Assembly (NCBI GenBank): GCA_017893485.1
Contig: JACEHZ010000207.1
Span: 2,752,001 to 2,816,000 of the forward strand
Direction of reading: 5' to 3'
DNA: 64,000 nt
Source of the DNA: Hemerocallis citrina
Taxonomy: Eukaryota; Streptophyta; Magnoliopsida; Asparagales; Asphodelaceae
The translations under genes were made by a program, and so were the position numbers. The notes under the pieces are model-generated. The model searched no databases. It had not been told where the DNA came from and worked only from the letters and a program-made list of their open reading frames with translations. Numbering within the stretch: position 1 is the stretch's first letter; each line of letters starts with the position of its first letter. This document shows, in pieces, positions 33,667 through 63,918 of this stretch.

Positions 33667-34463
33667 AGTAGACTTAGGACCTTGTAAGTCGACTTATGTA
33701 CTCATTTAAGTCGACTTATGTTTTTATAAGTCAACTTCTTGCTTAATTTATTTCCTTAAAATCATGAATGTTCTCCCCCTGGACAGTCGACTTACTACAG
33801 TATAAGTCGACTTACTACAGTATAAGTCGACTGGTACTGATGGATTTTTTATATAAACTGGAATGTTCTATTTTTCCTAAAATTACATGGGACTTTATGA
33901 AGATAATTTGGAAATTGTTGCATGAAATAAAATGTGATTTGAGAATAAAAGGTGTAATTAGGACTATGATTTTGGATATGTGTATTTTTGGGAAAGTATA
34001 CCTTGCAAAAGAACTGGGAATGAAGAAGATTAGTATAGTAAAGATTGAAGTGACATTATGCGATAGATGTATGAAAAATATGAATTGGGAATATTTGTTA
34101 GTATTTCTCATTTTGAGAATAAGGTGATAACCATGAAATATGAATTATTCTCGTTGGAGAATAGTGCAACAAATTATGATGTGTGAATAGAATGAAGGAA
34201 TGATCCCTTAATTTGAGATTTTAACCTGTTCAGTCGACCTGATGTGTGTAACAGTCGACTGTATCGAACCTGAGAAATTACATAATTGAACTCTGCAGAA
34301 CAGCTAACTGTGTTGAACGACAGTCGACTGTCCTGTGATTGATAATTGAAATTGGAACTCTGCGGAACAGCCGACTGCCATGTGCAGCAGTCGACCCTTC
34401 CGAGCGATTATTGAAGAACTTTGTTTGACTGAACAAGTCGACTGGAACAGCTCCAAGTCGACT
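33667..34463. repeat. Paired AGTCGACT palindrome array in the solo LTR
   Basis: Starts of intact or one-base-variant AGTCGACT copies: 33667/33687, 33709/33729, 33785/33805/33825, 34232/34253, 34302/34322, 34369/34389, 34436/34456. Within a group the spacing is 20-21 bp. The last four pairs repeat every 67-70 bp. Confidence 0.92.
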
Positions 34464-34977
34464 GTTCAGAAGTACTTTTGGTATACCAGAAACTCTATGA
34501 TTGGTTTATAATAAAGGTTATGAATCTTATGTTGATTATTTGGTTATGACAGTAAATTCAATTTGTCTTTACGTGAACTTACATGAAGTGAATCATTTAT
34601 TAGAACTTGTCAAAGTTGTATGAATGTGAAAGTTATGAACATGAAAAAGGAAAATCTATCATGATTATGAAAAATGAACTCATGAGCTGGAAGTGCTCAG
34701 ATTATGTTAGAATTTGTGAATTGGAATTGAAATGAAAGAGTAGCTAAGTCTCCCCCGGCAATTGGAAAGAAATTGAAATGAATTATTGAAAAGAAAGACC
34801 AAGGTTGGTCAGGTTGAAATGAATGAATAAGTTCGGTTTAGTGGAGAGGCTAACTCTAGAGCTTTGATTTTGTTCATGATTCTAATAAAAACTAAGGATT
34901 AGTACATAGTGGAGACGTGATGAAAGTAGGAGAAAAACACGAGTGAGGGCCATCGGATTTGCGGCGGAGTGTATTTC

Positions 34978-35230
34978 ACAGGTTCTTCACGATGAGTCGT
35001 GACATGACGTGGATACGGCTCCAGGGTACCGTGGCGGCGGAGAGTATTTCACAGGTTCTTCACGATGCGTCGTGACATGACATGAGTACTGCTCCAGGGT
35101 ACCGTCCCGGTGGCGACGCTTGTGGGATGTTTGGTGACTGCATGAGGATCGTGTGCCATGAAGGAGGCTGAATTGCCACAGGTTCTTCACGATGAGTCGT
35201 GACATGACGTGCGATTCCCCTCCAGGTTTT
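34978..35230. repeat. Three copies of a hairpin repeat
   Basis: CAGGTTCTTCACGATGAGTC and the following GTGACATGACGTG recur near 34979, 35052 and 35179. Each contains TCACGA...TCGTGA, which can fold into a small stem-loop. They lie in the 3' half of the solo LTR. Confidence 0.8.
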
Positions 35231-36885
35231 CTGTACACGTGCTTGCACTCATAGATCATCTAGGATACCTACCATAGTTACAGTAGTAGATTAAGTCATA
35301 ACGAGGGATTGAACCCTACCAAGATGAAGAACGATTAAGGGCTTGCCCTCGGACCTATGTAGTATGGGATGCATAGAATCCGAACAAGTGCGCATTAGTG
35401 TCATGTATTATAAATAAATGCATTAAGGACTAAGTGCACAATCACAACACGACATCAATAGGGTAGTCCCTTTAGTTCGATTTGTGACAAGTTTGTGTTT
35501 GCTAAATATGGAAAATTAAGTTATACTATTTCCGGCATAGAGAGGATGGCCGTGTATAATGATCGTCGGTTGAATAAACTGACGTACCCACAGTCTTATA
35601 TGCAGGTAAATGGCTTGATAAAGATTAAAGAGGAATCAATGCTTAAAGATTACTTCATGATCGTTGTATATTTATTTCATTGTTGTAAATTTTACTTCCG
35701 CTGTGCAAATGTAAAGTGTAATATTGATGTAAACTCTGATGTAAAGTGAAAAGTTTAAATTTCCTTGTAAAATTGTACTAAAGAAAGTGAAAAGATCTTG
35801 TAGAACATCTCGAATTCAGTGTATTTGGGATTCGGGGCGTTACATAACCAGCAACGCCAGCACCTGCCGACGAAGCCCCGATGATTCTAGAGCCATGCCA
35901 GCACCATCCCCGCATCAACCGATGCATCCTGTTCCGACCCCAGCCGTCGTCCTCCCCGACGAACGCCACCAGCAACGCCAGCACCTCCCGACGAAGCCCC
36001 GATGATGCTAGAACCATGCCAGCACCATCCTCGCATCAACCGATGCCTCCTAATCCGACCCAAATAATTTGGATATTAGAAAGAAAAAAATTGGATATTA
36101 GGGGTTCCTCAACTTCAACACGACTTTCAAACATGCATTCGACAATCGAATCCCTAACAACAAAACTCCCAAACCCAAAAAAAAATCAAAATCAATTTCG
36201 AAATCAATTTTGGAACTCAGATTTCCCCCTCCCTCTCAGCCTATCTCACCATTCTCCCCCACATACCTCCACGGCAGTGCCAACACTCCTGACGTTCGTC
36301 GTGCGCAACCCCACGCCAACGTCTGACCGCTCTCCCGCCTCCAGCCCCGGTGCCACCAACCTGAACCCCAACTGAGGGCTGCGCCGGTCGCCCCGACCTG
36401 CCTCCACGCTAGCCCCCAGTTCTTGACTGCCGCTGCACCATCGACACCAAGCCAAATCTTGGCGCCCCCCACTGACCGCCGCCAAACCGAACCCCAAACA
36501 GCGCAAACAGCCAACCCCCCACCATCCCGCCTTGCGGGTCGGGACCGACGCCACGTCGAACCCACCGGATGTGAAAATAAGGGATTTGAAGAGAAACAAG
36601 AAGATGAGGGAGAATACGGAGTGATCTAGGAGATCTTTGAAGATGTGAAGTTGGGAACGGAGGTGGGGAGGGGGGCGGCGAAGCTAGCCGCCGCCCCCCA
36701 AGAGTCAGATCTAGGGTTAGGGTTTCTTCTGGGGGATTTTTTTTGAGAGCTTCTCTCTCTAGAATTCTAGAGAGAGAAAGCTCTTTTTTCAGCTACATAA
36801 TTGTTGATTTACTGTTTACAAGACTTTTCATATGTTGTGTCGTTCTGAAGACGTGTCGTAGGCACTTGGCCACGGGCAAATCTAG

Positions 36886-36922
<37 letters not shown>

Positions 36923-36923
36923 C

Positions 36924-36997
36924 CCAAGATGAAGAAAAACTGCCACATAAAAAATATTTGCATATATTACAAGCATTACTGTCAGTACAACAATAAA
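36924..36997. repeat. Module Y, first copy (also at 37517-37589)
   Basis: CCAAGATGAAGAAA...ATTACAAGCATTACTGTCAG is shared with 37517-37589. It lies just after the Helitron array and an (AT)n(AC)n tract. Confidence 0.85.
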
Positions 36998-37014
36998 TTC
37001 TTCCATTGCAAAGG

Positions 37015-37182
37015 TACTGCAGCGTTTGCAAACGTGCAAACCACTTAGCCTGTTATTGATAACGATGGATTATGTTATAATGAACCCGTTGTTTGAAAAC
37101 AACAAGTTCAGTTTTAATATGCCTTAACCCGTCATTGCCAATGACGGGTTAAGCGATTTGTACGTTTGCAAACGCTACAGTA
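37015..37182. mobile_element. 168-bp MITE
   Basis: Inverted ends of about 26 bp: TACTGCAGCGTTTGCAAACG at 37015 and its near-complement at 37157-37182. The interior contains inverted GTCATTGCCAATGAC and GTTGTTTGAAAACAAC motifs. No clear TSD was found. It lies between module Y copy 1 and module X copy 2. Confidence 0.7.
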
Positions 37183-37206
37183 GCGTTATATATATATATA
37201 TATAAA

Positions 37207-37483
37207 AGTTGTAAATGTCTGGTTCTCCTCTCCAATAATTTGAAATAGAAGAATCCTAAATTCTTAGGACCTACCAAACAAGTAGCACACAAGTAGCACA
37301 CGGGGAAGTGAGAAAATTTCTGCTAATTATTAGACACTGCCATTGTCCTATTTGTTCAATTATTAATTGTTCAAAATATACAACAATCCAAACATAAAAT
37401 AAAATAAATTCGTAATTTCAGGAACTGTGTGCTCATTCTTCAAGGATCACCCCAAATTAACTAACCACCTTCCTTGTCAAAAC
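37207..37483. repeat. Module X, second copy
   Basis: Partner of 29248-29515. Here it is followed, after about 34 bp of AT repeat, by module Y, which probably shows the order before the Helitron insertion. Confidence 0.9.
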
Positions 37484-37516
37484 TTAGATATATATATATT
37501 TTATATGAGGTATATA

Positions 37517-37589
37517 CCAAGATGAAGAAACATTGGCACCAAAAAATATTCGCAAATATTACAAGCATTACTGTCAGTACAACAATAAA
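37517..37589. repeat. Module Y, second copy
   Basis: Partner of 36924-36997, in the uninterrupted X-Y arrangement. Confidence 0.85.
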
Positions 37590-38628
37590 GTTTTCTCACA
37601 GTGAACCAGAGGTCTGAAGTTTAAATTTCACGGGTATCAGTTTATCGTCTATTCTTGCAAACAAAAAACAAATATTAATTTACACATACTTATCTTTTAA
37701 TTAAATTATTGAGAGGTTTGGATTGAAGAATATAAGTAGTTGAATAGCATAAGAGTTGTGTGGTGATGGTGGTTGGAGGAATGGTTGGCTGTTGAGGATT
37801 TTGGTGAAGCTGATCTTTAATTCTCCATTACAAAATATACCATTATTCATCTCATTTCTTGGCACTTTGGCAGTTGCTAAGCTCCTAACAAAGTTCCAAA
37901 ACATATATTTCCGCCCGTGACCGTTGCATGTGACGAGGCAAGAGCTGTTATAATCACGTCAATGCATTGCACTGCCCCCACTTCCATATATCATACTGCT
38001 CTCTTCTCTCTCTCTATCATACAATCATACTGCTCTCTTCTCTCTGCCTTCTCTCTCCCTTCCACATAATCACGTGACCCATCAGTATGATTTATGCCAT
38101 TTATATTCAAGACTACCCAATACTGTTACTAGAACAAATATATATACGAGCCATGTTGCTAGATACATGCAATTGACACGACACTAGCTTTTGCTATGTT
38201 TTCAAAATTTTGACTGTGCAGTGTGGCTCATTGTCATGGCATGTCGGCATGTTCTTTTCAACCTTACTTCTTAATGACAACAAAATTTAGAATGCTGCAA
38301 CTATAGAATTATTTTAAGAGGGTTTAACTTCTTCAAGCTTAGTTTCCCCATCAGCTATGTCACTCCTTCATAAAACTAGCTGGCTAGCAGTTCTATGATT
38401 ATATTATATAACAGAATATACCTTCTATTTAGGAGAAAATTGAGAAAGGACGTGAAGAAAAGATAAGATTCGAGAATTATAAGATACGAATCATGAAAGA
38501 GATAAACTAATACTAGTAGGAATATGATATAGGTAAAGGAAGAATAATACATTTAAATTCGTTCTGATAATTAGATGAATATCTTTAGGCCTATGTGGAG
38601 TGTGGGGGAGGGCATGCATGAATGGTGT

Positions 38629-38675
<47 letters not shown>

Positions 38676-38848
38676 TTCAGTCGGTCTATTTAAACACCAA
38701 ACCTTCCCTCCTTCCTTATGACCTCTCAACTAACTCTCTTCTGTTTTTCCCTCTTCCACTTATCTCTATATCTCTAATTATATGCAAAACTGAACTTGCA
38801 TGCAAGAGCTATAGGTTCATTCTTCAAATTCTTCAAATAAATAGAAAG
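37590..38848 (+). promoter_or_regulatory. Upstream region and 5' UTR of the polygalacturonase gene
   Basis: CTATTTAAACACC at about 38686 is the best TATA-like element. A (GA)n tract (38632-38672) lies just upstream, a common feature of plant promoters. CT-rich leader sequence follows up to the ATG at 38849. No other gene is recognised here. Confidence 0.55.
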
Positions 38849-41800: not shown

Positions 41801-43762
41801 GATCTCAACAAAATTCGAGCAGAGTGTGTATGGTGCACTTAATCCAAGGCCTCTAAGAAGCAGGGTTACAAGAGTCCTATAAACCGGCTTCCAGTGGATT
41901 TCTTTTCCCCCACAAACATGACCCTAATATGCCTTATTAATCTTTTGTCGGCAGGCTCTAAGGTTCTACGGGAGTTACAATGTCACCGTCACGGGAATAA
42001 CAATCCAGAACAGCCCGCAATGCCACCTCAAGTTTGATAATTGTGAAGCCGTCATGGTCTTTAACATGACCATCTCATCCCCAGGAGACAGCCTTAACAC
42101 TGACGGAATACACCTTCAGAATTCCCAGAGTGTTTCCATCCATCATGTCAACGTGGCCTGCGGTAATTATTCATTTACATATGTTAACTACCTGCCTCAG
42201 ATAATAATCAAGTAAAAGAGAGAAAAATAAATTAAAGGAAAATATTCATTATAGATATGATATATACACTTAAAGGTGTAAGCACAGTAGAAAATAGTTA
42301 CCTAGCTGCCACAAATTGAATATGAAGTAGACAATTGGAATCAATTACATGTGACAATTATCTGTTTTTATGATGCTGACAAAAAATCTACAATGACAGG
42401 CGATGACTGTGTCTCCATACAAACAGGATGCTCCGATGTAAAAATACACAGTATTCATTGTGGTCCTGGCCATGGTATCAGCATTGGAGGGCTTGGGAGG
42501 GATAACACTAAAGCTTGTGTCTCAAATATTACTGTCCAAGATGTTGATATCCACAACACAATGACAGGCGTTCGAATCAAAACCTGGCAGGTACCAACAT
42601 TTCTCACCTCACAGAAAAACCTCACAACTCGCAATTTTTTTTAAAATAAAATTCCTCGCAAACTAATTCCATTAAAAATAATAACGTATGCAGAGAACTT
42701 CCCTTTAAAATAACCTACGTATCACCATTTTCATCACACCCTTTCAATGTAGGAAGCACGGATGCAGGTATCAAAATGGGACAAACACACACAGCCACAG
42801 TAAACTATATGTTGTGAGATTATGTATCACAGTTATGCCTAAACTTAATTTAAGTGGCATCCATCATGAAAGAGTTTGAATAGAAGGTGAATTAAGAGAT
42901 GTCTAATTTATGTAAAAGTAGTTTTAGTTTCATCATCTGCAAAATTTACAAAATACCAGAAAATCCAGTCCTCTCAACTATAATAGAAGTTTTCTAGTAT
43001 TAGAAATGTGAAAGTCATTGAAATTGATTCCTATATGCTCGATAGTGTCAAGAAGTGTTCAAAATTTAAAAGAGTAAAATTTTGGACACTTGAAATGCGT
43101 CACACACATGTCCAAGTGTCCACGAAGTGCCGATGTCCATCCAACAAAGATACGACTTTACGATAATGTCAGTGCAACATAGGTATCAACACTCTAACAG
43201 AGCGTACACATTCTTTACGGATCTTCAACTTGACTCTTATCTTATAAATTCATGATTCCGTATATCAAAAATTGAAACATACCTATACTATAAAGAATTT
43301 CAAAGACCTAGAACAGGCTGAGTAAAAACGAAAACACGTTTCCTAATGTAAGGAAACTTTTGTCAGCAGGGTGGATCAGGGTCAGTGCAGGGAATAAAGT
43401 TCTCAAACATTAGAATGTATGAAGTTCAAACACCAATAGTGATTGATCAATTCTACTGCGATCGAAGCACTTGCAAGAACCAGACATCAGCAGTGGCACT
43501 GACAAGCATCAGCTACGAGAGCATCATCGGGACATACACTGTCGAGCCTGTGCGCTTCGCATGCAGCGACTTCACTCCTTGTTCAGACATCAGCCTGACT
43601 GAGGTGGAGCTCAAGCCAGTACAAGAGCAGTACCACATGTACGAACCCTTCTGTTGGCAGGCATTTGGCGAGCTGTACACACCAACAGTCCCTCCCATCT
43701 TCTGTTTGCAGAATGGGAAGCCACTAAGCAATCGTGTCCTAGCTGATCATGATACATGTTGA
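38849..43762 (+). CDS. Polygalacturonase (glycosyl hydrolase 28), seven exons, Pro/Ser-rich N-terminus
   Basis: Secreted pectin hydrolase that cuts alpha-1,4 galacturonan in the cell wall. Exons: 38849-39409, 39555-39686, 41326-41490, 41586-41630, 41955-42162, 42400-42590, 43370-43762. All introns are GT-AG and the joined frame is open, 564 aa. Residues 1-29 are a signal peptide (hydrophobic [14 protein letters not shown]). Residues about 70-165 are Ser/Pro-rich repeats. The GH28 fold starts at [13 protein letters not shown]. All four catalytic motifs are present: NTD (349-351), GDD (371-373), GHG (394-396) and RIK (429-431). The Pro-rich domain and exon layout resemble the At1g48100-like (PGX3) clade. 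An upstream in-frame ATG at 38600 reads through the (GA)n tract and is rejected. A copia element lies 281 bp downstream, tail to tail. Confidence 0.95.
39101..39178 (+). repeat. 39-bp in-frame tandem repeat in polygalacturonase exon 1
   Basis: A 39-bp unit starting AATCCAAGTCCAAGTCCAAG occurs at 39101 and again at 39140. It adds 13 codons (Pro/Ser/Asn-rich) per copy without breaking the frame, so it can change linker length. Confidence 0.88.
40895..41195. repeat. Short direct repeats in polygalacturonase intron 2
   Basis: ACCAGCTTGCTRAGAAACAT with the following GCTAATYGTAATAGATATG occurs near 40900 and 40981. ATAGATATGTTTAAGTATAA occurs near 40930 and 41171. Otherwise the 1.6 kb intron (39687-41325) shows nothing I recognise. 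Confidence 0.75.
41738..41880. repeat. Foldback in polygalacturonase intron 4
   Basis: TAACCTGCTTCTGAAGCCC and CTTGGATTAAG (left arm) pair with CTTAATCCAAG and AGAAGCAGGGTTA (right arm). This makes an imperfect stem of about 30 bp with a loop of roughly 80 nt. Confidence 0.7.
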
Positions 43763-44042: not shown

Positions 44043-44155
44043 TGATAAAACATCCAAACCAAATCAAGACATCAAGATTCAAAGAGAAATCATAGCAGAG
44101 AGAAATGGAAAGTAGGGTTTCATTCATTTTGGGGCTGCCATAGAAAATAGAATAC

Positions 44156-44188
<33 letters not shown>

Positions 44189-44246
44189 CACTTGACAGCC
44201 AAAAGGACTATAATACCCTTATAGTATAAGCATAATTACTTTAATA
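44043..44246 (-). repeat. 3' LTR of the copia element
   Basis: 204 bp, homologous to 48792-48989. It contains a longer (GA)n tract (44160-44187) than its partner. Confidence 0.9.
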
Positions 44247-44259
44247 TCCTCCCTCAAAC

Positions 44260-44661
44260 TCACGATGCGGCTGCAATAAGCAATGAGAGTTTGCCAACAA
44301 GAAAACAAAAACGTGAAATAGAATGTGACTTGGTAAAAAAGTTTGCAATCTGCATGGAGGAAGGAACAAACGGTAAAGTAATGGTGCCATGCTTGAGGTG
44401 GTGACGAGTAAAATGACAATCAATCTCGATGTGTTTGGTCTGTTCATGAAAAACTGAGTTGTGGAAAATCTGAATAGCACTTTGGTTGTCACAATACATA
44501 GGAGTAGGATGAGAAAGAACAACACCCATATCTGTAAGTAACCAACGTAACCAAATAATTTCTTTAGTAGTGGATGTCATAGCACGATACTCTGCCTCCG
44601 TAGAAGATTGAGAAACAACAGTTTGTTTCTTACTTTTCCAAGAAATAAGAGAATCACCCAA
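44260..44661 (-). pseudogene. Copia RNase H
   Basis: On the minus strand, ISWKSKKQTVVSQSSTEAEY and TKHIEIDCHFTRHHLKHG are hallmark copia RNase H blocks (E and D catalytic residues visible). The stretch is open for 133 residues and ends near the PPT. Confidence 0.88.
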
Positions 44662-45910
44662 AAAGATACAGAAACCAGAAACCAGTAACAGACTTGCGAT
44701 CTGTGGGGATCACGCCCGTGATCAACATCAGAGTATGCATGCAACTCCAAGGAAGAAGTGGATGGAAGCAAAAGACTCTGAAAAATGGTCCCTCGAAGAT
44801 ACCGCAAGATACGAAGAACAGCTGCCCAATGTACGGTGGTAAGGGAAGCAACAAACTGACTAACAATATGAACAACATAAGCAATGTCTGGACGAGTGAT
44901 GGTGAGGTAGACCAAACTTCCAACAATAGTGCGGTATAAAGTAGGATCAGACAAAGGAGTACCATCAGAAGGAGCGTACTGAACATTCAGCTCACAAGGA
45001 GTATCAACAGTTCTAGTATCGTAAGACGAGCACGCTCAAGAATATCAGCAGTGTACTTAAACTGAGAAAGAAGATAACCTTTTGGAGAAAATGCAACTTC
45101 AATACCCAAAAAATACCGTAGAGAACCCAAATCCTTCATTTCAAATTGATGAGCTAATTCTGACTAATACTACAATGCCATCAACATCATCACCAGTAAT
45201 AATCATATCATTAACATATAGAGAAAGTAAGATACGACCAATAGGAGTACACTTAATAAAGAGAGCCGAGTAATGATTGCTGGAGGAAAACCCAAGAGAA
45301 GTGACAATGGTAGAGAATTTCTCAAACCAAGCTCGAAGTGCATGTTTGAGGCCATACAACGCTTTCTTAAGTTTACAAACTTCTCCATGATTATGAGAGA
45401 CCAGGTGGGGGAACCATATAAACTTCTTCATGCAAATCACCATTCAAGAAAGCATTCTTAACATCCATTTGAGATATATGCCATTGACGAACAGATGCAA
45501 CTGCAATAAGAGTAAGAACTGTGGTTATTTTTGCAACAGGAGCAAAAGTCTCCTCATAATCCATACCATACTGCTGAGAAAATCCCTTAGCAACCAATCC
45601 AGCTTTGTAGCGCTCAACCGATCCATCAGACTTTGTCTTGATTTTATAAACCCAACGAGAACCAACTGCACTCTTACCAGAGGGTAAAGGTACCAAATCC
45701 CAAGTGTGTCTTTTCCAAGGCAGAAAGTTCTTCATTCATCGCATGATGCCAATGGGGGTCAAGAACTGCCTCATTGTAGGATGAGGGCTCAGAGAGACAA
45801 TGAATAGATGCTAAAAATGAAGAGAAAGAAGCGGAATAACAGAAGTAAATAAAATCTGGTAGGTGAGTAGACTTACGAGAACGCTGAGAATAACGAGAAG
45901 AGGAATCCAC
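44662..45910 (-). pseudogene. Copia reverse transcriptase (frameshifted)
   Basis: [20 protein letters not shown], then [33 protein letters not shown], then [17 protein letters not shown]. The catalytic box reads YVNDMIITGDD, with Asn in place of the first Asp of YVDD. SDPTLYRTIVGSLVYLTITR follows. At least two frameshifts. This copy cannot encode active RT. Confidence 0.9.
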
Positions 45911-46129
45911 AATCCCATGAGGAGTTTGGGCTCCGACGGGAGGAGGGGAGAATCACGAGTGTCAAACTGCGAATCACCAGTATCTCCAGAACTAACAGTG
46001 CGAGTCCTGCGAGAATAATGAAAAGGAAATGGAGCTACAGGAGCAAGTGATGAGTCGGAGTTAGGAATGGGAGAGACTGGTGCAAAAATGTTCTCTGTAT
46101 GGTCAATAAAAGGATCAATATAAATGAGC

Positions 46130-46844
46130 TCAGATTTGGTCAAGTTGTGAGAAATAGAAGGAATAGAGAAGAAAGGTATATGCTCCAAAAACAAAACATG
46201 GCGGGAGACATAGTTTTTGCGAAGCTGGATCAAAACAACGATATCCCTTTTCTCCCTCACCATAACCAATAAATACACAAATGGCAGAGTGAGACGATAA
46301 TTTCGTACACTCTACATGTGGACGAAGGACAAAGCAAGTAGAACCAAAGACTCTCAATGAGGAATAGTAAGGAGCATGCCCATATAGTTTTTCAAAGGGT
46401 GTTAAACCTAAAATAATAAATGATGGGATCTTATTAATTAGGTTGACTGCAGTAAAACTGCTTCTCCCCAAAACTCACTAGGAACTTAAGATGACAACAA
46501 AAGATAACGAGCAGTTTCAACAATGTGCCTATGTTTTTTTTTTCAGCAACACAATTTTGCTCAGGAGTATTAGTACAAGAAGACTGGTGAACAGTTCCAT
46601 CTAAAGCAAGTAAATCACAAAATTTATTCGAAGTATATTCACCACCCAAATCACATCTAAAACACTTGATAACAGCACAATGTTGAGTTTTTACAAGAGA
46701 TCGAAAGTTTTTATAAACGTCAAAAAAGTCAGAACAACGTTTCATGAGATAAACCCAACAAAAATGAGTGTGATCATCAATGAAAGAAACATATATCATA
46801 TATAGACCCCCCTTTTGTAACAAAAGGGGAAGACCCCCACACAT
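46130..46844 (-). pseudogene. Copia integrase core
   Basis: FIDDHTHFCWVYLMK, FRCDLGGEYTSNKF and the degraded TPEQNCVAEKKN (normally NGVAERKN) give the DDE core. A following block FEKLYGHAPYYSSLRVFGS is the conserved integrase C-terminal part. Open in pieces only. Confidence 0.87.
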
Positions 46845-46899
46845 CCGAATGGACTAAATCAAATGGCGCAGAAGAGCAATAAGTACTTAAATTAAAAGG

Positions 46900-47330
46900 C
46901 AATGCAGTAAATTTGGCAAGTTTACAACACTAGGAGCTGCAAATACTGGTAACTTCCGCTCATCCAAGACATATATTCCCCCCTTCTACGGCTTGTCCCA
47001 ATCAACTTCTGGGAATACGGATCCTGCACATAACAAGAGGTAGAAGAAAATGTTACTAAGTAAGCAGAATCACACAACTGACTAACAAATACAGGACTCA
47101 GCATAAGCTTAGAAATATGGTAAACATTAGAAAAAGAAAAACGAGGTGCGACAACATAACCAATTCCCTCTAATGGCATAGGAGTACCATCAGCAATCAT
47201 GACAGACACAAATGATGTAGGATGCAAAGAAACAAAAAGGTTTGAATCAGGAGACATGGTGTGAAGCTCTAGAATCCAAAACCCATGTGGAAGGAAAAAT
47301 ACCTGAGGAACTAGGGGGTAGCTGACCTAT
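46900..47330 (-). pseudogene. Copia protease and pre-integrase region
   Basis: Where copia proteases read WILDSGASHHMSPD, this copy reads WILELHTMSPD. The DSG catalytic triplet is lost by a small in-frame deletion. NVYHISKLMLSPVFVSQLCD follows, as expected of the GAG-pre-integrase region. Confidence 0.75.
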
Positions 47331-47423
47331 GGATGAAGAGGCAGACATAGCATGCGGCTGTGATGCAATGAGCATTTGTAGCTGCTCAGAAATGGTAGCG
47401 AGTGCAGGGTTTGACGATGAGGC

Positions 47424-48353
47424 TCAAAAATCTGAGAAGTCTGATTGTGGTATGGCTGCTGCAGTGCTAAATTGTGGAGGATGATATGGTCGTGGTTGAG
47501 GTCGGTTGCTAAGATGTAAGGGCCTGAATTGTTGCTTTTGTTGATGTTTTGGTTGTGCTCGATTTGATAGCCTAGGACATTGAGCCTTCCAGTGACCTCT
47601 CTGCTTGCAAAAACTGCACTCATCCACACCAACCTTTGAATAAGGTTTATTCTCATAGTGAACAGAAGGTCTAGAAGGGACTGCCAAAACAGAAGAAGTA
47701 GGTACTGAAAGAATTCTTTTTCTTGCTTGAGATTTAAGACACATTTCATCAGCTAAGAACTCACTAACCATTGAATCAACTGAAGGAAGTGGGACACGAT
47801 GTAGGATAGAACCACAAAGTCCCTCAAAATCATCTCGAAGTGCCATCAAAAATTGAACTAAGTGTTGTTCCTCTCTATGAACGATGTAAGTTGCACAAGC
47901 TTGTAGTTCTGCCGATTCTGTAAAAGCTAATTGATCCTAAAGATCTGACATTGCAGAATAGAACTCTTGAATGCTCCTGTCATTCTGTTGAAGAGCTTGA
48001 ATATCAGATTCTAACTGATATTGTTTGGCAAAGTTAGACTGTGTATACAACCTTGCAAGATGTTTCCAAATATCCTTCGTTGTTTCATACTTTGCCAATT
48101 TGGTACCTATTGATTGTTCAACAGAATTGTTTATCCAAGTGATAATTTTGGAATTAGCTACTTCCCAATCATCTAGTATGGTTACATAGTTTGCAGCTTT
48201 ATCATTTGTGGGTTTATTCACAGTGCCAGAAACATAACCCCATATTTTCTTTCCTTTCAAAAAGTTTTTCATCACATAACTCCAATACGAATAATTTTTT
48301 CCATCCAACCTCACACTAATAGATTGAAGCGAATCATCTTTATTACTAGCCAT
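47424..48353 (-). pseudogene. Copia gag with zinc knuckle
   Basis: It starts MASNKDDSLQSISVRLDGKN, then SYWSYVMKNFLKGKK, WKHLARLYTQSNFAKQYQLE and, after a stop/frameshift near 47940, the CCHC knuckle CSFCKQRGHWKAQC. This matches plant copia UBN2-type gag. It would package element RNA. Confidence 0.88.
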
Positions 48354-48505
48354 TTTAAAAGCAAATAAGATCACAACTTTCAAGATCACAGCTTTCAAGT
48401 TGCAAATCCAAACGAACTGTCAAATTTGCATACCCACAATCTAATTAATTAGGCATAAACATCCACAGTAAAATCGTCCATTATGCAGCTAACTCTAAAC
48501 CCCCA

Positions 48506-48515
48506 AAACAGTAAC

Positions 48516-48545
<30 letters not shown>
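48506..48545. repeat. (TTC)n microsatellite in the copia leader
   Basis: About 13 TTC units (GAA on the element strand), between the PBS and gag. Confidence 0.95.
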
Positions 48546-48546
<1 letters not shown>

Positions 48547-48791
48547 ACCCATAAATCCAACAAAACAAAGCTTTCCAAAAGAAAACAACAAAAAACAGCC
48601 CTAACCTCAAATTTGCAGCTTCTCCCTAAAAGCCTGCTCCAATCCGAGGGTTTGAGGAAGACGATCTGACGGAGCAATAGGAGTAGCAAGATTCGGGTTT
48701 CGAATTCGGGTGCGAGCTCGGAGGAGATCAACGATGGCAGCAACAAGCAACAACGGCAAACCATGTAGGAATCAAAGCTGCTCTGATACCA

Positions 48792-48989
48792 TGATAAAAC
48801 ATCCAAACCAAATCAAGACATCAAGATTCAAAGAGAAATTATAGTAGGGAGAAATGGAAAGTAGGTTTCATTCATTTTGGGGCTGCCATAGAAAATAGAA
48901 TACAAAAGAGAGAGGGAAAGAGGGCTCTTAACAGCCAAAAAAGAAAAGGACTATAATACCCTTACACTATAAGCATAATTACTTTAATA
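48792..48989 (-). repeat. 5' LTR of the copia element
   Basis: 198 bp. The PBS lies immediately inside (48778-48792, minus). Confidence 0.9.
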
Positions 48990-54060: not shown

Positions 54061-54155
54061 ACGTCAGATTGTTTACTTTAAATTTTTTAATATATTAAAT
54101 GTGCATCACATGTGTAAATTACTATCTATCTATCTATCAATAATATAATATATAA

Positions 54156-54765: not shown

Positions 54766-54769
54766 TTAT

Positions 54770-55189: not shown

Positions 55190-55262
55190 TATTTTATTAA
55201 TCTCTTATTAATGAAATAAGGTGGTCAGACTTCACCTTTTCTTTTAAAAAAAATAAATAAAT
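55190..55262 (+). mobile_element. LINE 3' tail
   Basis: TCTTATTAATGAAATAAGG...CTTTTCTTTTAAAAAAAA matches the 3' end of the LINE at 6165-6217. A strongly 5'-truncated copy. Confidence 0.5.
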
Positions 55263-55439
55263 AAATTTGAAACATAATGTGCTACCCCAATATTTAAGGA
55301 GCTTATATTTGAGTTAAATAATAAAAAGGGCTAACTAGATTGTGGATAGAGGTTAGCTTATATTTCAGATATCATAAAATTGTGAGTTCGTTCGGAGTTG
55401 CTGGGGAATAGTGAAGATCATAGTAGAGCTGGTATCGAG

Positions 55440-55868: not shown

Positions 55869-55927
55869 TGGTATCGAGTTTTTGTATGAGAGGGATGATG
55901 ATCTAACTATAATTTTCCTTTGAAATT

Positions 55928-56120
55928 GATTCTTTTTTTTTTAAGGAAAAGATGGAGTATGGCCACCCTGTTTCATTAATAAGAAATTAATGATACAAAC
56001 TTAGCGAACTGAGCCAGATTACAACCTATAGATAGGAAATAAAATATACATGAAGTAACATGACCCGTACAAACAACAAATTCCTCCAACAACCCTGGAG
56101 GGTGGGCCGATAAATAAGCT
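55928..56120 (-). mobile_element. 5'-truncated LINE with poly(A) tail
   Basis: The minus strand reads CCCACCCTCCAGGGTTGTTG, later TTATTAATGAAACAGGGTGG and CCATACTCCATCTTTTCCTT, ending in an A tail (55929-55940). Same order of motifs as the LINE 3' UTR at 6000-6217. Confidence 0.65.
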
Positions 56121-56360
56121 CGGTCCAGCAAAATTATATGTACGTCGGTTTAGCTTCGTACATGAGTGAGGTGGAATGGCATGTCAAGTGTGTATTAACC
56201 TTAGTTAATTTATTTACACCTACCATAGAGTTTTTTTCTCCCCAAAATAAGCCTCCCCAAGCTGGTAGACTCTTTTTTACCACATTAGCAGAAACCATAG
56301 TGGCAAAATGGAATATGTGGCTCCTTCCAAAAACTAAAACTAAAACTAAAAAAACCAATA

Positions 56361-56364
<4 letters not shown>

Positions 56365-56434
<70 letters not shown>
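56365..56434. repeat. (AT)n microsatellite
   Basis: About 35 AT units, then a short CA run. Confidence 0.97.
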
Positions 56435-56438
<4 letters not shown>

Positions 56439-56779
56439 GCACACACACACATTTAAGCTGCTATTTCCATCTAAGGCGTCAGCTCATTTTGTAAATAGTT
56501 GTGGCTGCTGTTTGAGAACTGCGGTCTTATTCAAATGTAGGTCACAGTTTTTAATAGCGACTGTGTCTCAAATTAACACAGTTATTTGTTTGTATGATTT
56601 GAGACCGAGGAACCTCTTTAACAAATGTTCAAATTTTATATAGCTCATTCACAAATTATTATTTTCATGTAGCTCACTAACAATGTAAGACTCGCTTCAA
56701 AATACACGATTTTTTTTAAAAAGGCACTTTTTGAAAAATTTTGCTGAAAGATGACAGTGGCTAAAGATTTGTACTCGTA

Positions 56780-57020
56780 GACTCAACAACTAAACTCGTC
56801 ATTCCCAACGGCAAGTTTAGTTGTTTCATACTCGCCGTTGGGACACAGCAAGTTTATTGCTAATTTTTTTGAAAAACTCGTCGTTCCCAACGGCGAGTTC
56901 AAATCGAAATTTTCAATGAAGACTCGTTGTTCCCAACGGTGAGGACATTTATACTAGAATCGTTATTGGTAATAGCGAGTTTAGTTCAAAATTTTCAATA
57001 AGCAGTTCCCAGCGGCAAAA
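56780..57020. repeat. Cluster of CCGTTGGGAACGAC-type inverted motifs
   Basis: Repeated words such as AACTCGTCGTTCCCAACGGC followed by GAGTT (56874-56898), ACTCGCCGTTGGGA, GACTCGTTGTTCCCAACGGT and ATCGTTATTGGTAATAGCGA. Each is an imperfect hairpin. They resemble the motifs in the interrupted Mutator-like element at 13.9-14.5 kb and the MITE at 37.1 kb. Confidence 0.7.
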
Positions 57021-57030
57021 ACATTTACAT

Positions 57031-57453
57031 TGTAATACCCTAGTTTGGCAGTGAACAGTCGACTGGTCAATCGTACAGTCGACTGGTACTGCATATTTGA
57101 GACGGATTTGAGAAGGATTTGAGAAATTTAGTCCCATATGGGAAGTTTGATATGATAATTTGAGTATAAATATAATTAGCCAATGATCAAGAGTCACCTA
57201 ATTGGTTAACCACCTTTTGAGAGGCAGCCTGTGGTGGGCAGTTGTACTACATAGTATCTAATTTGTCTTCTGAAAAATATTAAAATTGTTTGAGTATTGG
57301 GGCGGGGCGTTACAAATGGTATCAGAGCCAACTTTCGACACCGGGTGTAGTAGAGGTCAGTATGATCTGCGGTGCTGAGAGTCATTGATCTCCGGGGTCG
57401 GGTATACTCTGCGGTGTTGAGAGTCACAGGTAGTGATTGATAGCCGGGTATCC
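57031..57453 (+). mobile_element. Gypsy-type 5' LTR (284 bp) with PBS, truncated by the Sirevirus
   Basis: The LTR starts TGTAATACCC (57031) and ends GGGGCGTTACA (57314). TGGTATCAGAGCC (57317-57329), the initiator tRNA-Met PBS, follows directly, then about 120 bp of leader. At 57454 the Sirevirus LTR begins. Termini resemble the solo LTR at 32527, but this LTR is far shorter. It carries one AGTCGACT pair (57057/57077). The rest of the element lies right of the window. Confidence 0.82.
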
Positions 57454-58879
57454 TGTTGGATCCTGTAGGCGAGGCAACAAACACTAGAGGGGGGGGGTTG
57501 AATAGTGTTAATTAAAATAAACTGCGGAATAAAGACTTTTTCTTCGGTGCAGTCGACTTAGTGTGAACCAGTCGACTGATATAACTAAATAAAAGAAAAC
57601 TCAAACCACTCTGTGCAGTCGACTTAAAGTTAGACAGGCGACTGAAGACACAATAAAAATTTAAAGAAACGAGACTGACCAGTCGACTGATAATATGCTG
57701 AGTCGACTGTCCAGACAAGTTTCACAGAACTTAAACAGAAACAAGTAAATGCAAGTACGAGAGAAACAATCACAGAGTACACACGATATATCCTGGTTCG
57801 GTCCTTCCGACCTACATCCAGTCCCCAAGCAACCCACTTGAGGTTTCCACTATTCTTGAAAAACAAGTTTACAAGAATACCCTACGGCGTTTAGACAACA
57901 ACCTTGTCTAACCCGTAGTCCTTTCTCTCAACCAGAGAAAGCAGACCCACTCTACCACCAAGAGTGAAACGACCGACTCTACAACCTAGAGTCTAACTCT
58001 CCAACCGAGAGCAAAAAGAAACAATAAAAATTTACAGTCAACCTATAGCCTTGTTGATGTTATGTGATGTAGAACGTGGCTAAAAAGAGGTCGACTTCTA
58101 TACCCAGTCCAGAACGAATTCCGATGTTATACTGGACTGAGTGTAGAGAACCAAAATTTTAGAACTTGAAAGCCTTTTCTCTTTAACACTTTGAAATGCT
58201 CAAAGATTGCTCGGGATTCTTTAAAATGTTGTTAGATCTTTTTCAGTGAGTTCTGAACTCTATTTATAGAGTTAGAACTCCTGGACGTTGGGAGACAGTT
58301 ATTCCAACTGTCAACCAACGGATCCAAGAGCTTTTTAAATTTGAAAATCGATTTTGAAAACAGAAAACGGTCAAAAGCACTCGAACAGTCGACTGGGTTG
58401 CCATAATGAGTCAACTAGTCAGAGTTTGAATAAATTTAAACAGTTTTGTACTGCCAGTCGACTGATAGAATCATCGGTCGACTGGTACTCAACAGTTAAA
58501 TTATTTCAAACTGTTTTGACATTATTTTTGATGTTTTAAAAACACACATTGTAAAATAGTGAGTGTATGTGTGTGTGACAAGGCTTTACATCATACTAAG
58601 ACTCAACAAAAATAAGATTACATTGTTTACAAGACATGACTATAATTGACACTTTTAAGCTTGAGACTTTGGCTTGAGTCTTGAGTCTTGGCTTGAGTCT
58701 TGAGTCTTGTCATGAGTCTGGAGTCTTGAATGAAGCTTTAACCATTGTCTTTATCTGGAGCCTTTGTGCTTGTTCATTTGTTCAGCTGAATAGTCTTTTG
58801 TGTGTACAACCTGCAATTTAGCTGTATAGCATAGACACATATTACAGTGTGTTGTGATCATCAAAATCAAGAATCAACA
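57454..58879 (-). repeat. 3' LTR of the Sirevirus
   Basis: 1,426 bp. On the minus strand it starts TGTTGATTCTTGATTTTG and ends GGATCCAACA, so the ends are TGTTG...CAACA. It carries AGTCGACT pairs at 57551/57570, 57617/57636, 57681/57701, 58387/58409 and 58456/58476. A TATTTATAG-type TATA (minus CTATAAATAG, about 58258) is present. Confidence 0.85.
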
Positions 58880-58903
58880 TTCTCCCCCTTTTTGATGATG
58901 ACA
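58880..58903 (-). promoter_or_regulatory. Polypurine tract of the Sirevirus
   Basis: Minus strand CATCAAAAAGGGGGAGAA directly upstream of the LTR start. It primes plus-strand DNA synthesis. Confidence 0.85.
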
Positions 58904-59184
58904 ACACAATAGCTGATAATAACAAGAAAATAATACAAGCATAGTAATGATATGCTCCCCTATTAAAAACACAACATGCATACATAAAAATGTATCATAA
59001 AATAGATTGTATCAGTCAACTTATAATGGAAGCAGTCGACTGATCAGAGAAAAAATAAACATACACACAAAAACACAAATACAGTAACACATCAGTCGAC
59101 TTATACTTTTAACAGTCGACTTACCAGTGAAACAACAAAAAAATACACAGAACACTCAGAACAGAACACAGTAAACAACTAAGA

Positions 59185-59208
59185 GGTATTTCTCCCCCTT
59201 TGTCATCA
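59185..59208 (-). promoter_or_regulatory. Second polypurine-like motif of the Sirevirus
   Basis: Minus strand GATGACAAAGGGGGAGAAAT, about 300 bp upstream of the true PPT. Sireviruses commonly carry such an extra copy just after the last ORF. Confidence 0.7.
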
Positions 59209-59310
59209 ACAAAAATAAAAAATAACCAGTCTTTTGCAGAAATAAACACAGAAATAACTGTCTTATACATAAACTAACAAGTTCATCAATACATAGGAAA
59301 AAAATAATCA

Positions 59311-60402
59311 TCAATCGCCGTCTTCTGAGTCTTCATCAGCAGCTTGATATGGAGGGGGAAATTGAGAAGTAAAGAAGTTGGTTAGGTGGGTGATTTTGGA
59401 GTCAAGAGAGTCAAGCTGAGAATCAACAGAGATTGAATGTTCCATATGATAATAGAAACATTCATAAAGAGTAGATGGATCTTCATAATTAGCATGAGGA
59501 CAAGATGAACTAGAAGATGCTGATGGTCTAGCAGAAGATGCCAAAGGTACTTGTGAGGGAGGAGGAGACCTAGGTGAAGTTCTAGGAGGAGGGTCAAGAA
59601 GCTTCATACGAGCTAAACTAGCACGATCGAAGCATTCATAGTGCTTCACGACATTGGTCTCGGAGTCGAGATCAATATCATAAGCCTGAAAGACCCTGGT
59701 AAGGAGACCTCCAAAGGTTAAGAAATGAGTATGATTTTGTTCAAGTTTGGAAAAGATGACACGACCCCAATTTATGACAATTTTACCAAAAATGGCATAA
59801 ACAGCTTGTTGCAGTTCCATAGAATGCTGATCATAACTTCCTCTTTTGGGAAGAATGTTATAAGCAAGTATTCTTGCAACCAATTTTGCAACAGATGTTA
59901 TATTCTTACTAGTCATTGGGGGTCCATGATTGGGCAAGAATATTTTAGATAAAACAGATAAATCATCCATGATAATGTCACCTAGATAAAGTCCCTCGTC
60001 ATCAATACCCTTTATGAGATTTATTCTCTCGGGTGTGAGAGTCATCTTAGTATTTTTGACTGAGGAACGGATCACAACATCTCCATCTTTCTTTTGAATA
60101 ACTCTCATGTTCGTGTAAAAAAGATAGATAAGTTGGGGATAATAATCGGGTTGATTGGCTAAAGAAAGATAGTCATAAAGACTACAGTTTTGGAAAATGG
60201 GAACTAGGTTAAACCTATCTAGGTCACTAAAATTGACAAAACGACCTGGAAAAATAACAATGCTACACATAAGATACCATCGTTCTAATAGATCAGGACT
60301 TAAAAGATATTGGGAATAATCTTGTGATGATGAACTAGCATCATGAGATCTTTTAGAACGTTTGGGTGCCATAAGAAAGGAGCAAAGGGAATATTTTACC
60401 AA
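59311..60402 (-). CDS. Sirevirus post-pol ORF (env-like / putative plant transposon protein)
   Basis: An open frame of 363 codons between pol and the 3' LTR, the place of the third Sirevirus ORF. The likely start is the second Met (60372; MAPKRSKRSHDASSSS), 353 aa. An N-terminal basic, Ser-rich tract leads to a globular part (SPDLLERWYLMCSIVIFPGR...ILPKRGSYDQHS). A Pro/Ser-rich linker follows (PPPRTSPRSPPPSQ), then an acidic end (AADEDSEDGD). I see no convincing signal peptide or membrane span, so the name env-like is historical; the function is unknown. Unlike pol, it has no stop. Confidence 0.78.
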   Translation of the reverse strand: MVKYSLCSFLMAPKRSKRSHDASSSSQDYSQYLLSPDLLERWYLMCSIVIFPGRFVNFSDLDRFNLVPIFQNCSLYDYLSLANQPDYYPQLIYLFYTNMRVIQKKDGDVVIRSSVKNTKMTLTPERINLIKGIDDEGLYLGDIIMDDLSVLSKIFLPNHGPPMTSKNITSVAKLVARILAYNILPKRGSYDQHSMELQQAVYAIFGKIVINWGRVIFSKLEQNHTHFLTFGGLLTRVFQAYDIDLDSETNVVKHYECFDRASLARMKLLDPPPRTSPRSPPPSQVPLASSARPSASSSSSCPHANYEDPSTLYECFYYHMEHSISVDSQLDSLDSKITHLTNFFTSQFPPPYQAADEDSEDGD

Positions 60403-60846
60403 GAGGGAAGAGAAAGAACAACTAGGAGTCGATCAGCAGCAGCACGGCAGTCGACTTCTTCTTTTCTGGACTTATGGTTTTGAATTTGGGGGTAATGGTA
60501 AAAGGTGAAGATGGAGGTTGTGAGAAGGGCTTTTAACTGAAGATAGATGGCTGTGATTGAAGGAGAAGAGATCAACGGCTGATGGAGAGAGTCACGGGTG
60601 AAAGGAAGAGAAACTTTTATCTCAAAGACTGTGTGATGAATCGTCGCTGAAGACAATTGAACTCGCGACAGTCGACTGATAGGGTAGAGCAGTCGACTTA
60701 ATCGAGAAGAAAATTAATTTTTATATCTACTGATCAGTCGACTTGAATAAGGATCAGGCGACTATTCAGAGAATAAAAATAAGTATATATAAAAATACAG
60801 TACAGTCGACTTAATCAAAACACAGTCGACTTAACAGATGAAATTT

Positions 60847-62274
60847 TCACCAAATATCAGTTAAATTACATATTCCAAGTTCTCTTCTTAAGTTAATAAA
60901 AGTATCTTCTTTAAGGGGTTTGGTAAAGATATCTGCTACTTGTTTATCAGTAGAGATAAAGTCTAAAGATATATCTCCTTTTAAAACATGATCACGTAGA
61001 AAATGATGTCGAATATCAATATGTTTCGTACGTGAATGTTGAATCGGATTTTTAGATAGATTAATTGCACTGGTATTATCACACATAATTGAAGGTTTTT
61101 CAAAGAAAATACCATAATCTAATAAAGTTTGTTTCATCCACAAGATTTGTGCACATGCCAAACTTGCAGCGATATATTCAGCTTCTGTAGTTGATAAGGA
61201 TACTGATTTTTGCTTTTTACTGCACCAAAAAACTAGTGAATGTCCCAAAAAGTGACATGTTCTACTAGTACTCTTGCGATCAGTCTTACTACCAGTAAAA
61301 TCAGCATCGCTATACGACAAAAGTTGAAAATTATCGGTGCGTGGATAAAATAAACCATAATCAGATGTGTCTTTAATGTATCTTAAAATTCGTTTCACAG
61401 CTTTTAAATGAGACTCTTTAGGACTAGACTGATATCTAGCACATAAACATACGCTGAACATAATATCTGGTCTACTTGCGGTAATATATAAGAGTGAACC
61501 AATCATACCCCTATAGAGTTTTTGATCAACACTTTTACCTAATATATCTTTGTCAAGGGTAGTAGTAGTAGCCATAGGTGTGGATTTACTACTTGTACTA
61601 TCCATGTTAAACCGTTTGAGTAATTCCTTTGCATATTTTCCTTGATTAATAAATATGCCATTTGAGGACTGTTTAATTTGAAGTCCAAGGAAATAATTGA
61701 GTTCACCCATGTGACTCATCTCAAACTCGTTTTTCATGGTATTAGCAAACTCTTGACATAGATTATTATTAGTAGAACCAAAGATTATATCATCAACATA
61801 TATTTGTATGATTAAGATATCATTCTTAACTCTCTTAATGAACAAGGTAGTGTCTACTTTACCTATCACAAATCCTGTTTCTAAAAGAAAAGTTTTCAGA
61901 CGATCATACCAAGCACGAGGTGCTTGTTTAAGACCGTACAAAGCCTTTTTCAATTTATAAACATGATCTGGAAATTGTTCATGTTCAAAACCTGGTGGTT
62001 GTTTAACATAAACATTCTCTTTAATGAACCCATTAAGGAAAGCACTTTTAACATCCATTTGATAAAGTATAAAATTCATGAAACTAGAAAAAGATAATAA
62101 AATTCTAATTGATTCTAGTCTAGCAACAGGAGCATATTTTTCATCAAAATCTATACCTTCTTCTTGATTATACCCTTGAGCAACTAGTCTAGCTTTGTTC
62201 CTTACAACTTGTCCTGATTCATCTAACTTATTTTTGAATACCCATTTGGTACCAATAATAGTCTGATCAGGAGG
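60847..62274 (-). pseudogene. Sirevirus reverse transcriptase and RNase H
   Basis: It is in the same frame as the integrase part, after a TGA at 62275-62277. [13 protein letters not shown], then [36 protein letters not shown], the intact catalytic box [11 protein letters not shown] and [15 protein letters not shown]. RNase [21 protein letters not shown] and [12 protein letters not shown]. The stretch from 62079 is open for 410 codons, so this part is the best preserved enzyme in the window. It converts element RNA to cDNA in cytoplasmic particles. Confidence 0.92.
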
Positions 62275-63918
62275 TCATGGAACTAAATCCCATACATCAT
62301 TCCTTATAAATTGGTTTAATTCATCTTGCATGGCATTCATCCAAAATTCATTCTCACAAGCTTCTTGTATATTTTTCGGTTCAAAATCCGACAAGAATGC
62401 TGTATGAGAAATCATATTAATATGTGATCGTGTCTGAATACCATGGGAGATGTCACCAATTATTAAGTCATGAGGATGATCTTTAACTTCAACAAAAGAT
62501 TTTGGTAAAGTTGAAGATATCACAATGGGATCAGTCGACTTGACAGGTTCTTCAGTCGACTGCTTTGCTTCAGTCGACTGGGAGTCCTTATCAGTCGACT
62601 TATCAGCCAGACTAGTTTGTTCTAAAGATTTAATCACATTATTTAAAGGTGATGAATCAGTTTCATCATCTTTATTTAAATTTGATGAAGGCAGAGATTC
62701 ATCGAATGTAACATGCATTGACTCTTCAATAGTCATTGTCGACTTATTTAAAATTCTATATGCTTTACTCCTATTTGGGTATCCTAAAAAGATACCCTCA
62801 TTAGATCTAGGATCAAATTTATCTAGATTATCTTTAGTGTTCAGAATAAAACACTTACAACCAAATATCTTAAAATAAGAGACTTTAGGAATTTTGTTAA
62901 AAAACAACTCATAACAAGTCTTCTTTAGCTTAGGTCTTATAAGAATCCTATTTAAAACATAACAAGCTGTAGCAACGGCTTCAGCCCAAAAGTACTTTGG
63001 TAAATTGCTTTCAACAAGCATGGTACGTGCGCATTCTTTCAAAGTCCTATTTTTCCTTTCAACCACTCCATTTTGTGGTGAAGCTCTAGGAAATACAAAT
63101 GAATGTGTTATACCATTCTTGTTGCAATATTCTGTAAATGTTTCATTCTCAAATTCTCCACCATGATCACTTCAAATAGTGACTATGGTTAGAGATCATT
63201 GATTTTGAATACGTTTACAAAAATTTGCAAATTCATCAAAGGCATCATTCATATGCTTTAAAAAGAATGTCCAAGTGAATCTTGAAAAATCATCTACTAA
63301 AACAAATACATATCTACTTTTATTTAAAGAAGCAACTCTAGTAGGGCCAAATAAATCCATATGAATTAATTCGAGCGGCCTACTAGTAGAAATTACTTCT
63401 TTTGTTTTAAAAGTGGATTTGATTTGTTTTCCTAGTTGACATGCATCACATAACATATCCTTTTTAAAGGATAATTTTGGCAGTCCTTTAACTAGGTTAT
63501 ACTTAGATATTTTTGAGAGATTCTTCATATTCACATGTCCAAATCTTCTATGCCAAAGCCAAGAGTCATTGTTAGAAGCTATTAAACAAAAATCATTTGA
63601 AAACTCAATTGTATTCAAACACAATTCATAAATATTGTTTTTGCGAAAACCTTGAAAAATGATATTTTGCATAGTAGAATCATAAATCAAACATGCATCT
63701 TTTTCAAATACTATTTTATATCCTTTATCCCACAATTGACTAATACTTAACAAATTATGTTTTAATCCACTAACTAACAACACATTTTCTATAGTGGGGT
63801 TAGAATTTTTACCAACCATGCCGATATCTATGACTTTTCCTTTGTTGTTATCACCAAAGGTAACTGTTCCTCCATCGATGCTTTGAATGGTGGATAGAAG
63901 GTTGGCATGTCCGGTCAT
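62275..63918 (-). pseudogene. Sirevirus pre-integrase and integrase with three stops
   Basis: GAG-pre-integrase: VSGLKHNLLSISQLWDKGYK and SWLWHRRFGHVNMKNLSK (HHCC finger with CDACQLGKQ). Core: PLELIHMDLFGPTRV, FVLVDDFSRFTW, then SDHGGEFEN and the NGVVERKNRTLKE block. The frame is continuous but broken by TGA at 63196-63198, 63172-63174 and 62275-62277; two of these fit CGA-to-TGA decay at conserved Arg sites. The C-terminal linker (about 62600-62520) contains repeated STD/STE tripeptides encoded by AGTCGACT palindromes. Confidence 0.9.
62533..62600. repeat. Four AGTCGACT palindromes in the pol integrase-RT linker
   Basis: Starts 62533, 62553, 62572, 62593 (spacing 20, 19, 21 bp). They are translated on the minus strand as KST(D/E) and QST(D/E) steps. 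Confidence 0.93.

Follow-up and report, generated by a model that had tools for sequence, protein, structure and literature searches.

Why should one plant genome have the same short palindrome, in closely spaced pairs, in retroelements of different superfamilies? The question is raised by a 64,000-nt stretch of the 3.775-Gb Hemerocallis citrina assembly (the window), in which a preliminary description had counted about 43 copies of AGTCGACT in a 3.3-kb solo long terminal repeat (LTR), a 284-bp LTR and a Sirevirus, had placed them in pairs about 20 bp apart, and had suggested that they form a protein-binding site. The paired palindromes are confirmed here and prove larger in scale than first described.

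Intact AGTCGACT occurs 32 times in the whole window, against 0.69 expected from 100 shuffles. The three named elements together hold 43 sites at ≤1 mismatch, in agreement with the first count, and 31 of these are intact; 39 of the 43 have a partner at 18–22 bp. Intact neighbours show 13 distances of 18–22 bp and 7 of exactly 20, where redistribution of the sites inside each cluster (20,000 trials) gave 2.2 and 0.43 (maxima 10 and 4), so that the claim of fixed pairs of about 20 bp stands. The longer word TCGACTGGTACT is common to all three elements, at 33827, 57079 and 58478, just as had been reported. Two other retroelements in the window contain no intact site, gypsy remains at 16–26 kb having four one-mismatch sites and a copia element one; the motif is therefore not a general property of retroelements here.

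The pair as a unit across the genome

Genome-wide, pairs of the form AGTCGACTN{10,16}AGTCGACT, with start distances of 18–24, number 216,859, compared with 15 for the reversed word. The distribution of spacings is not flat, which bears out the fixed-pair rule: among the matches listed (76 words from 100 places, repeats omitted), the 74 distinct spacers place start distances at 18 (1), 19 (2), 20 (33), 21 (29) and 22 (9), with none at 23–24. Distances of 25–54 (30 steps) account for 92,277 pairs against 101 for the control. Of the 90 plus-strand places listed in this range, 66 fall at 44–54, which is the gap between successive pairs, 17 at 36–43 and 7 at 25–35; 8 of those 17 lie at 42, or two steps of 21. 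Adjacent sites no more than 130 bp apart give 144 distances in 15 sequences, partly related and with both LTRs of a single insertion among them; 91 of these distances are 18–22. There is a hint, no more, of helical phasing in the gaps between pairs (R = 0.40 near 10.5 bp, p = 0.0014 versus a uniform null); the signal is broad in period and its source sequences are related. Ten of eleven 10-kb stretches chosen regardless of the motif have zero sites; ten of these eleven motif-blind stretches come from minor contigs, and they therefore give no estimate of site density.

The outside of a pair can be told from its inside. CNG at positions +4 to +6 is found on 65 of 140 outer sides and on 4 of 168 inner sides; in stretches fetched afterwards, and not used to find CNG, the figures are 34/80 and 4/90, and after dropping pairs with similar spacers they are 15/34 and 3/40. 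Genome-wide, GNNCNGA lies beside pairs with spacers of 11–14 in 102,889 exact flanks (51,385 + 51,504), whereas the C/G-swapped control GNNGNCA does so in 674 (357 + 317). About 24% of flanks match GNNCNGA exactly, two flanks being counted for each of the 216,859 pairs. The outer side thus shows a preference for GNNCNGA.

We propose that the recognition unit is read on double-stranded DNA, takes approximately the form (TCNGNNC)AGTCGACT-N11..14-AGTCGACT(GNNCNGA), and spans roughly four helical turns, or 42 bp. A protein would bind each pair, probably as one dimer per palindrome and two dimers per pair, and the pairs would be strung into arrays, mostly at 56–80 bp from pair to pair. Fixed pairs of about two turns with outer boxes, conserved cores and free spacers, which recur in arrays and in more than one superfamily, fit the docking of a multimeric DNA-binding protein from which the elements would profit.

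A pair of palindromes might also act through base pairing, since any such pair can make an 8-bp stem. Its two palindromes would then pair together, or dimerise genomic RNA, for packaging or for small-RNA production, and clustered maize Sirevirus palindromes are reported to fold and to attract small RNAs (PMC10760457, in its accessible text, as for all papers cited here). A first test on 32 pairs gave outer +1 pairing of 0.69 versus 0.52. In 64 distinct pairs, however, covariation is not consistent: outer positions +1 to +7 and inner positions +2 to +6 pair no more than when permuted (outer +1, 44 versus 43.2), the exception being inner +4 (24 versus 15.7, p = 0.015, one of 12 tests). Nor does a loop require a spacing of 20–21 with none at 23–24. 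As the two flanks do not covary except at inner +4, selection is unlikely to act on a hairpin, and we regard this explanation as decidedly improbable.

Scans of other contigs returned 24 pair matches in viral contigs and 38 prokaryotic contigs with three sites. In a contig of a Treponema metagenome-assembled genome (L042:6310–6720), AGTCGACT recurs in a tandem array about every 21 bp; this is probably a repeat of the bacterium's own, with no relation to the plant motif.

Conservation of the sites between diverged copies

In 14 comparisons covering four array families, 742 of 760 in-site bases (97.6%) are conserved between diverged copies, with sites defined in one copy only; the same comparisons give 1626 of 2032 (80%) for other CpG-centred 8-mers and 10791 of 13788 (78%) elsewhere. 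Many of the 14 take the same two copies in both directions, and these counts are therefore not independent. Where sites intact in either copy were counted, the window Sirevirus LTR and its relative L070 are identical at 77 of 80 site bases and at 935 of 1310 outside, and array 2 of the gypsy solo LTR agrees with L065 at 46 of 48 site bases and at 459 of 635 outside; the alignment of gypsy cluster 1 was left out as too diverged (45%). Resolved by position in 33 pairs, the footprint has a core conserved at 94–100% and flanks at 58–85%, against a background of 78.4%.

Arrays in copia and gypsy elements

Arrays recur 6.0–8.3 kb apart in six cases, with 2.5 kb between the copies sampled. Between them lie gypsy protease, RVT_1 and RNase H in L082, L084 and L085, and RVT_1, RNase H and an integrase zinc-binding domain in L083; in L086 and L087 an aspartyl protease scores near the Pfam cut-off (24.1 and 25.2 bits versus 24.3), and L087 also has RVT_1. 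Gypsy A1 (L082/L083) is related to A2 (L084/L085), and the reverse transcriptase (RT) of gypsy B (L086/L087) is about 32% identical to the A1 and A2 RTs. The occurrence of two copies around coding sequence suggests that the gypsy arrays lie in LTRs. Because the Sirevirus is a copia element and arrays flank both A and B gypsy coding DNA, the motif is common to copia and at least two gypsy lineages. This sharing, the genome-wide pair rule and the conservation of sites but not of their flanks are as would be expected of a protein-binding unit, and lend the earlier interpretation partial support.

The solo LTR of the window is of the gypsy A2 type (32527–35844, plus strand; 3,318 bp) and is flanked on both sides by TAACC, its target-site duplication. 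Its 14 sites at ≤1 mismatch form array 1 (33667–33832; sites at 33667, 33687, 33709, 33729, 33785, 33805 and 33825), in which the group 33785–33832 is a perfect 20-bp tandem repeat, and array 2 (34232–34463; sites at 34232, 34253, 34322, 34369, 34389, 34436 and 34456), laid out as about 20 + 47 bp. Its relatives are L065, L090 and L091, together with the gypsy coding pieces L084/L085 that lie between A2-type arrays, and it matches A2-type array regions at 66–70%. A second repeated unit in the same LTR, different from the palindrome, is the 73-bp tandem repeat at 34961–35233, which contains GGTTCTTCACGATG.

The short LTR (57031–57314, plus strand; 284 bp) has one pair, 57057/57077, and is followed at 57317 by TGGTATCAGAGC, which we take to be a plant tRNA-Met primer site. 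Both it and the 3.3-kb LTR start with TGTAATRCCCTRG and finish with CGGGGCGTTACA; they are therefore not clearly two unrelated families. Of the three families first proposed, the sharing between copia and gypsy is upheld, and the distinctness of these two LTRs is in doubt.

The Sirevirus (57454–64000, minus strand) appears, from the order of the parts, to lie within the internal region of the element with the 284-bp LTR. It has a copia-type pol with RVT_2 and integrase-side domains, and, as many Sireviruses do, an extra env-like open reading frame (ORF), a putative envelope, between pol and the 3' LTR. The pol ORFs (60847–63966) occupy several frames with stops between, and the element reaches the window edge; their Pfam domains are RVT_2, retroviral SH3-like, GAG-pre-integrase and Pol_BBD, with rve, the integrase core, below its curated cut-off. 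None of the viral contigs searched held relatives of the pol piece. The env-like ORF (59311–60432) matches PF20167, 'putative plant transposon protein'. When the env-like protein was considered as the binder, 0 of 2325 candidates reached E 0.001, and a single-sequence structure (pLDDT 38.8) was useless. By eye only, GGGGGAGA at 58881–58888, abutting the LTR, and at 59191–59198 are candidate polypurine tracts.

Arrays are dispersed through this element. Within the 3' LTR (57454–58879, ends TGTTGATTC...CCAACA), whose TATA box TATAAATA lies at 58268, a U3 array at 58387–58483 (58387/58409 and 58456/58476) is placed about 120–215 bp upstream of the TATA box, and three pairs at 57551–57708 (57551/57570, 57617/57636 and 57681/57701) lie downstream, all six positions of which are intact in L070. 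Two further arrays border the env-like ORF, one between it and the 3' LTR (59014–59121; 59014/59034 and 59094/59114) and one upstream of it (60670–60831; 60670/60691, 60736/60756 and 60804/60824). Another lies in frame in pol.

An ordinary host transcription factor of stress or development might account for this pattern by binding AGTCGACT pairs in LTR enhancers, the copies in coding and linker DNA being by-products. Such a factor would suit the U3 array upstream of the TATA box and, if it belonged to the host, sharing among unrelated families would be expected; Sirevirus repeated motifs, moreover, mainly match stress factors (Bousios et al. 2010, PMC2829016). Yet a promoter enhancer is not needed at the places where other arrays are found: on the downstream side of the TATA box, to either side of the env-like ORF, and within the reading frame of pol. 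The scatter of the arrays, which takes in linkers and coding DNA as well as the LTR, is somewhat easier to reconcile with a role in chromatin or anti-silencing than with an enhancer confined to the promoter. We consider the host-factor explanation rather unlikely; it overlaps with the docking of a protein as proposed above, because the latter leaves the kind of protein open. No motif database having been searched, this composite site is not known to us from any plant factor.

Elsewhere in the window, the copia element at 44043–48989, which is without an intact AGTCGACT, has gag and integrase remains lying between repeats that are 95–97% alike and about 4.75 kb apart. Among the retroelements, at 42306–43762, there are also fragments of a glycosyl hydrolase family 28 gene (Pfam).

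In-frame arrays in two polyproteins

The Sirevirus pol array (62533–62600, minus strand; sites at 62533, 62554, 62572 and 62593, spaced 21/18/21) lies in the linker between integrase and RT, where it encodes KSTDKDSQSTEAKQSTEEPVKST as KST repeats. In gypsy B, locus L129 has four sites at 21/21/21 encoding KSTYEEDKSTDETYKSTEDHDKST; it has no Pfam match and is 50–80% alike to L086/L087 in pieces. L087 has four sites at 21/21/30, three of them intact and with different residues between, and reads on into RT; L086 is without the in-frame insert. Upstream of RT, then, identical DNA sites are read in one and the same frame in two polyproteins that are unrelated to each other. Spacing in the in-frame arrays is in multiples of three, and the residues between KST units differ.

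Selection for the KST peptide itself was considered and rejected. Among 35 linkers (the query included) that a pattern extracted from 122 proteins, the query has four KST units, two relatives have one and the remaining 32 have none. In L069, changes in two of the four pol sites keep the peptide.

Weighing the proposed docking of a common protein

We read the arrays, with a little over even confidence, as docking sites for one DNA-binding protein that would act on many families as an activator or anti-silencing factor. Elements of several superfamilies would retain them, whether in LTRs, in the spacers next to the env-like ORF or even within coding sequence, since the protein, once bound, would help to keep the elements transcribable. 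The sequences themselves show the pair rule, the conservation of sites, the outer-box preference, the in-frame arrays and the sharing between copia and gypsy; protein binding, its stoichiometry, the benefit to the element and the existence of one common protein are what we infer.

A number of results weigh against this reading. The CNG boxes are not invariant. Conservation is inflated, since most loci were picked up by their intact pairs, and flank positions beyond +1 are singly not conserved above background. Three of 10 sites differ between two LTRs that, being 94.6% alike, appear to belong to one Sirevirus insertion, a difference near the divergence elsewhere; a second pair of copies from one element agrees at 23 of 24 bases in sites and at 500 of 510 elsewhere. 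Constraint therefore bears on the lineage, not on dead or old copies. The Sirevirus pol array (30/32) is not clearly more conserved than its surroundings (2570/2904, 88.5%), and selection on it is therefore not proven.

Likeness between families must be counted on the same side. Mean cross-family flank similarity is 8.71, not above the column-shuffled 8.84; the sites therefore do not trace to a single recent duplicated segment, an origin that the preliminary description had raised, and there is no general descent from one cassette. In the tail, 38 of 2706 cross-family comparisons reach ≥15 matches (shuffled mean 7, maximum 16), and the best match is 20 against a null maximum of 18. Of the eight best, six compare gypsy A1 with A2, two types that have an array segment in common, and the other two, Sirevirus versus gypsy B at 17, are inside the null. 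There are also 38–50-bp copia–gypsy matches around pairs. By these signs, cassettes may long ago have been exchanged between families.

Exchange of this kind, joined to tandem-repeat dynamics, could explain the arrays outright: a cassette would have spread between families and been multiplied by slippage, and conservation would be homogenisation. Besides the copia–gypsy matches and the tail of the comparisons, tandem duplications inside arrays favour this; arrays grow by tandem duplication inside a family, and same-family pairs are therefore not independent. Array 1 of the solo LTR (33656–33832), moreover, resembles in inverted orientation an array of the A1 gypsy type, another type than its own (L077:3451–3905; 73–87% over 77–176 bp), a likeness that may be a sign of segment exchange between gypsy LTRs. 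Homogenisation, however, would conserve the spacers, whose mean identity in the window is only 0.30, and beside conserved cores the flanks, past +1, do not rise above background. Slippage alone, too, hardly yields in-frame coding arrays in two unrelated polyproteins. As a full account we find it improbable.

The sites, being CpG palindromes in many families, might instead be targets of host silencing, read by a host repressor much as mammalian zinc-finger repressors act on retroelements. Selection would remove such sites, whereas the elements keep and multiply them, and we hold this explanation to be very remote.

The docking of a common protein may also be put in a bolder form, to which we give somewhat less than even confidence. 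A single sequence-specific protein, host- or element-encoded, would recognise the 42-bp four-box dyad and act in trans on many of the large LTR families of this genome; arrays would have been independently evolved or captured by copia and by several gypsy lineages, whose polyproteins would even have been bent, as in the KST repeats upstream of RT, to carry them.

Comparison with known systems

If this bolder reading is true, competing retroelements would have a common anti-silencing or activation code across the genome. Cis-regulation would, in an unusual way, have prevailed over protein sequence if the coding DNA of two unrelated polyproteins has been shaped to carry these sites. The precise pair rule, the outer boxes and >200,000 instances make an exact probe for finding the protein, and the motif gives a clear prediction for methylation and chromatin data.

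Palindrome arrays are already known in Sireviruses; the outer-box preference and the in-frame arrays in copia and gypsy polyproteins are added here. No such paired motif was found in a literature search, among the matches listed. The Sirevirus repeated motif (RM) is a short palindrome present in multiple copies, both in LTRs and in the linker that precedes the env-like gene; it is called Sirevirus-specific, and has a CGG-CCG core in 12 of 13 cases, the exception being Tnd-1 (PMC2829016). The element described here likewise has a multi-copy palindrome in the LTR and upstream of env, and the Vitis RM CGGTCGACCG shares the GTCGAC core with its motif; CpG transitions at both ends would turn CGGTCGACCG into CAGTCGACTG. 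Unlike the RM, the core here is AGTCGACT and not CGG-CCG, and the same motif is also found in arrays flanking gypsy coding sequence. The accessible text of that account gives copies at the start of env, but no pair spacing, outer boxes or pol copies, and left the role of Sirevirus palindromes open in 2010 (Bousios et al., PMC2829016).

In maize, the Sirevirus palindrome CACCGGACNNNGTCCGGTG is the most abundant motif in structured Helitron regions (PMC10760457). It too is a single palindrome across two element superfamilies of one genome, but belongs to structured, miRNA-like regions, and the accessible text describes no spacing rule or selection test (PMC10760457).

In Arabidopsis, the VANC6 motif of the VANDAL/VANC system is also present in AT9TSD1, an unrelated element in which methylation is lost (Hosaka et al. 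2017, PMC5735166). Tandem-repeat arrays of a motif that is shared with an unrelated element are found here too. VANDALs differ in being DNA transposons with an element-encoded VANC, and their motifs are, in the accessible text, non-palindromic and without a pair rule (PMC5735166). By analogy, VANC6 may serve as a precedent for a chromatin or anti-silencing role of the arrays in H. citrina.

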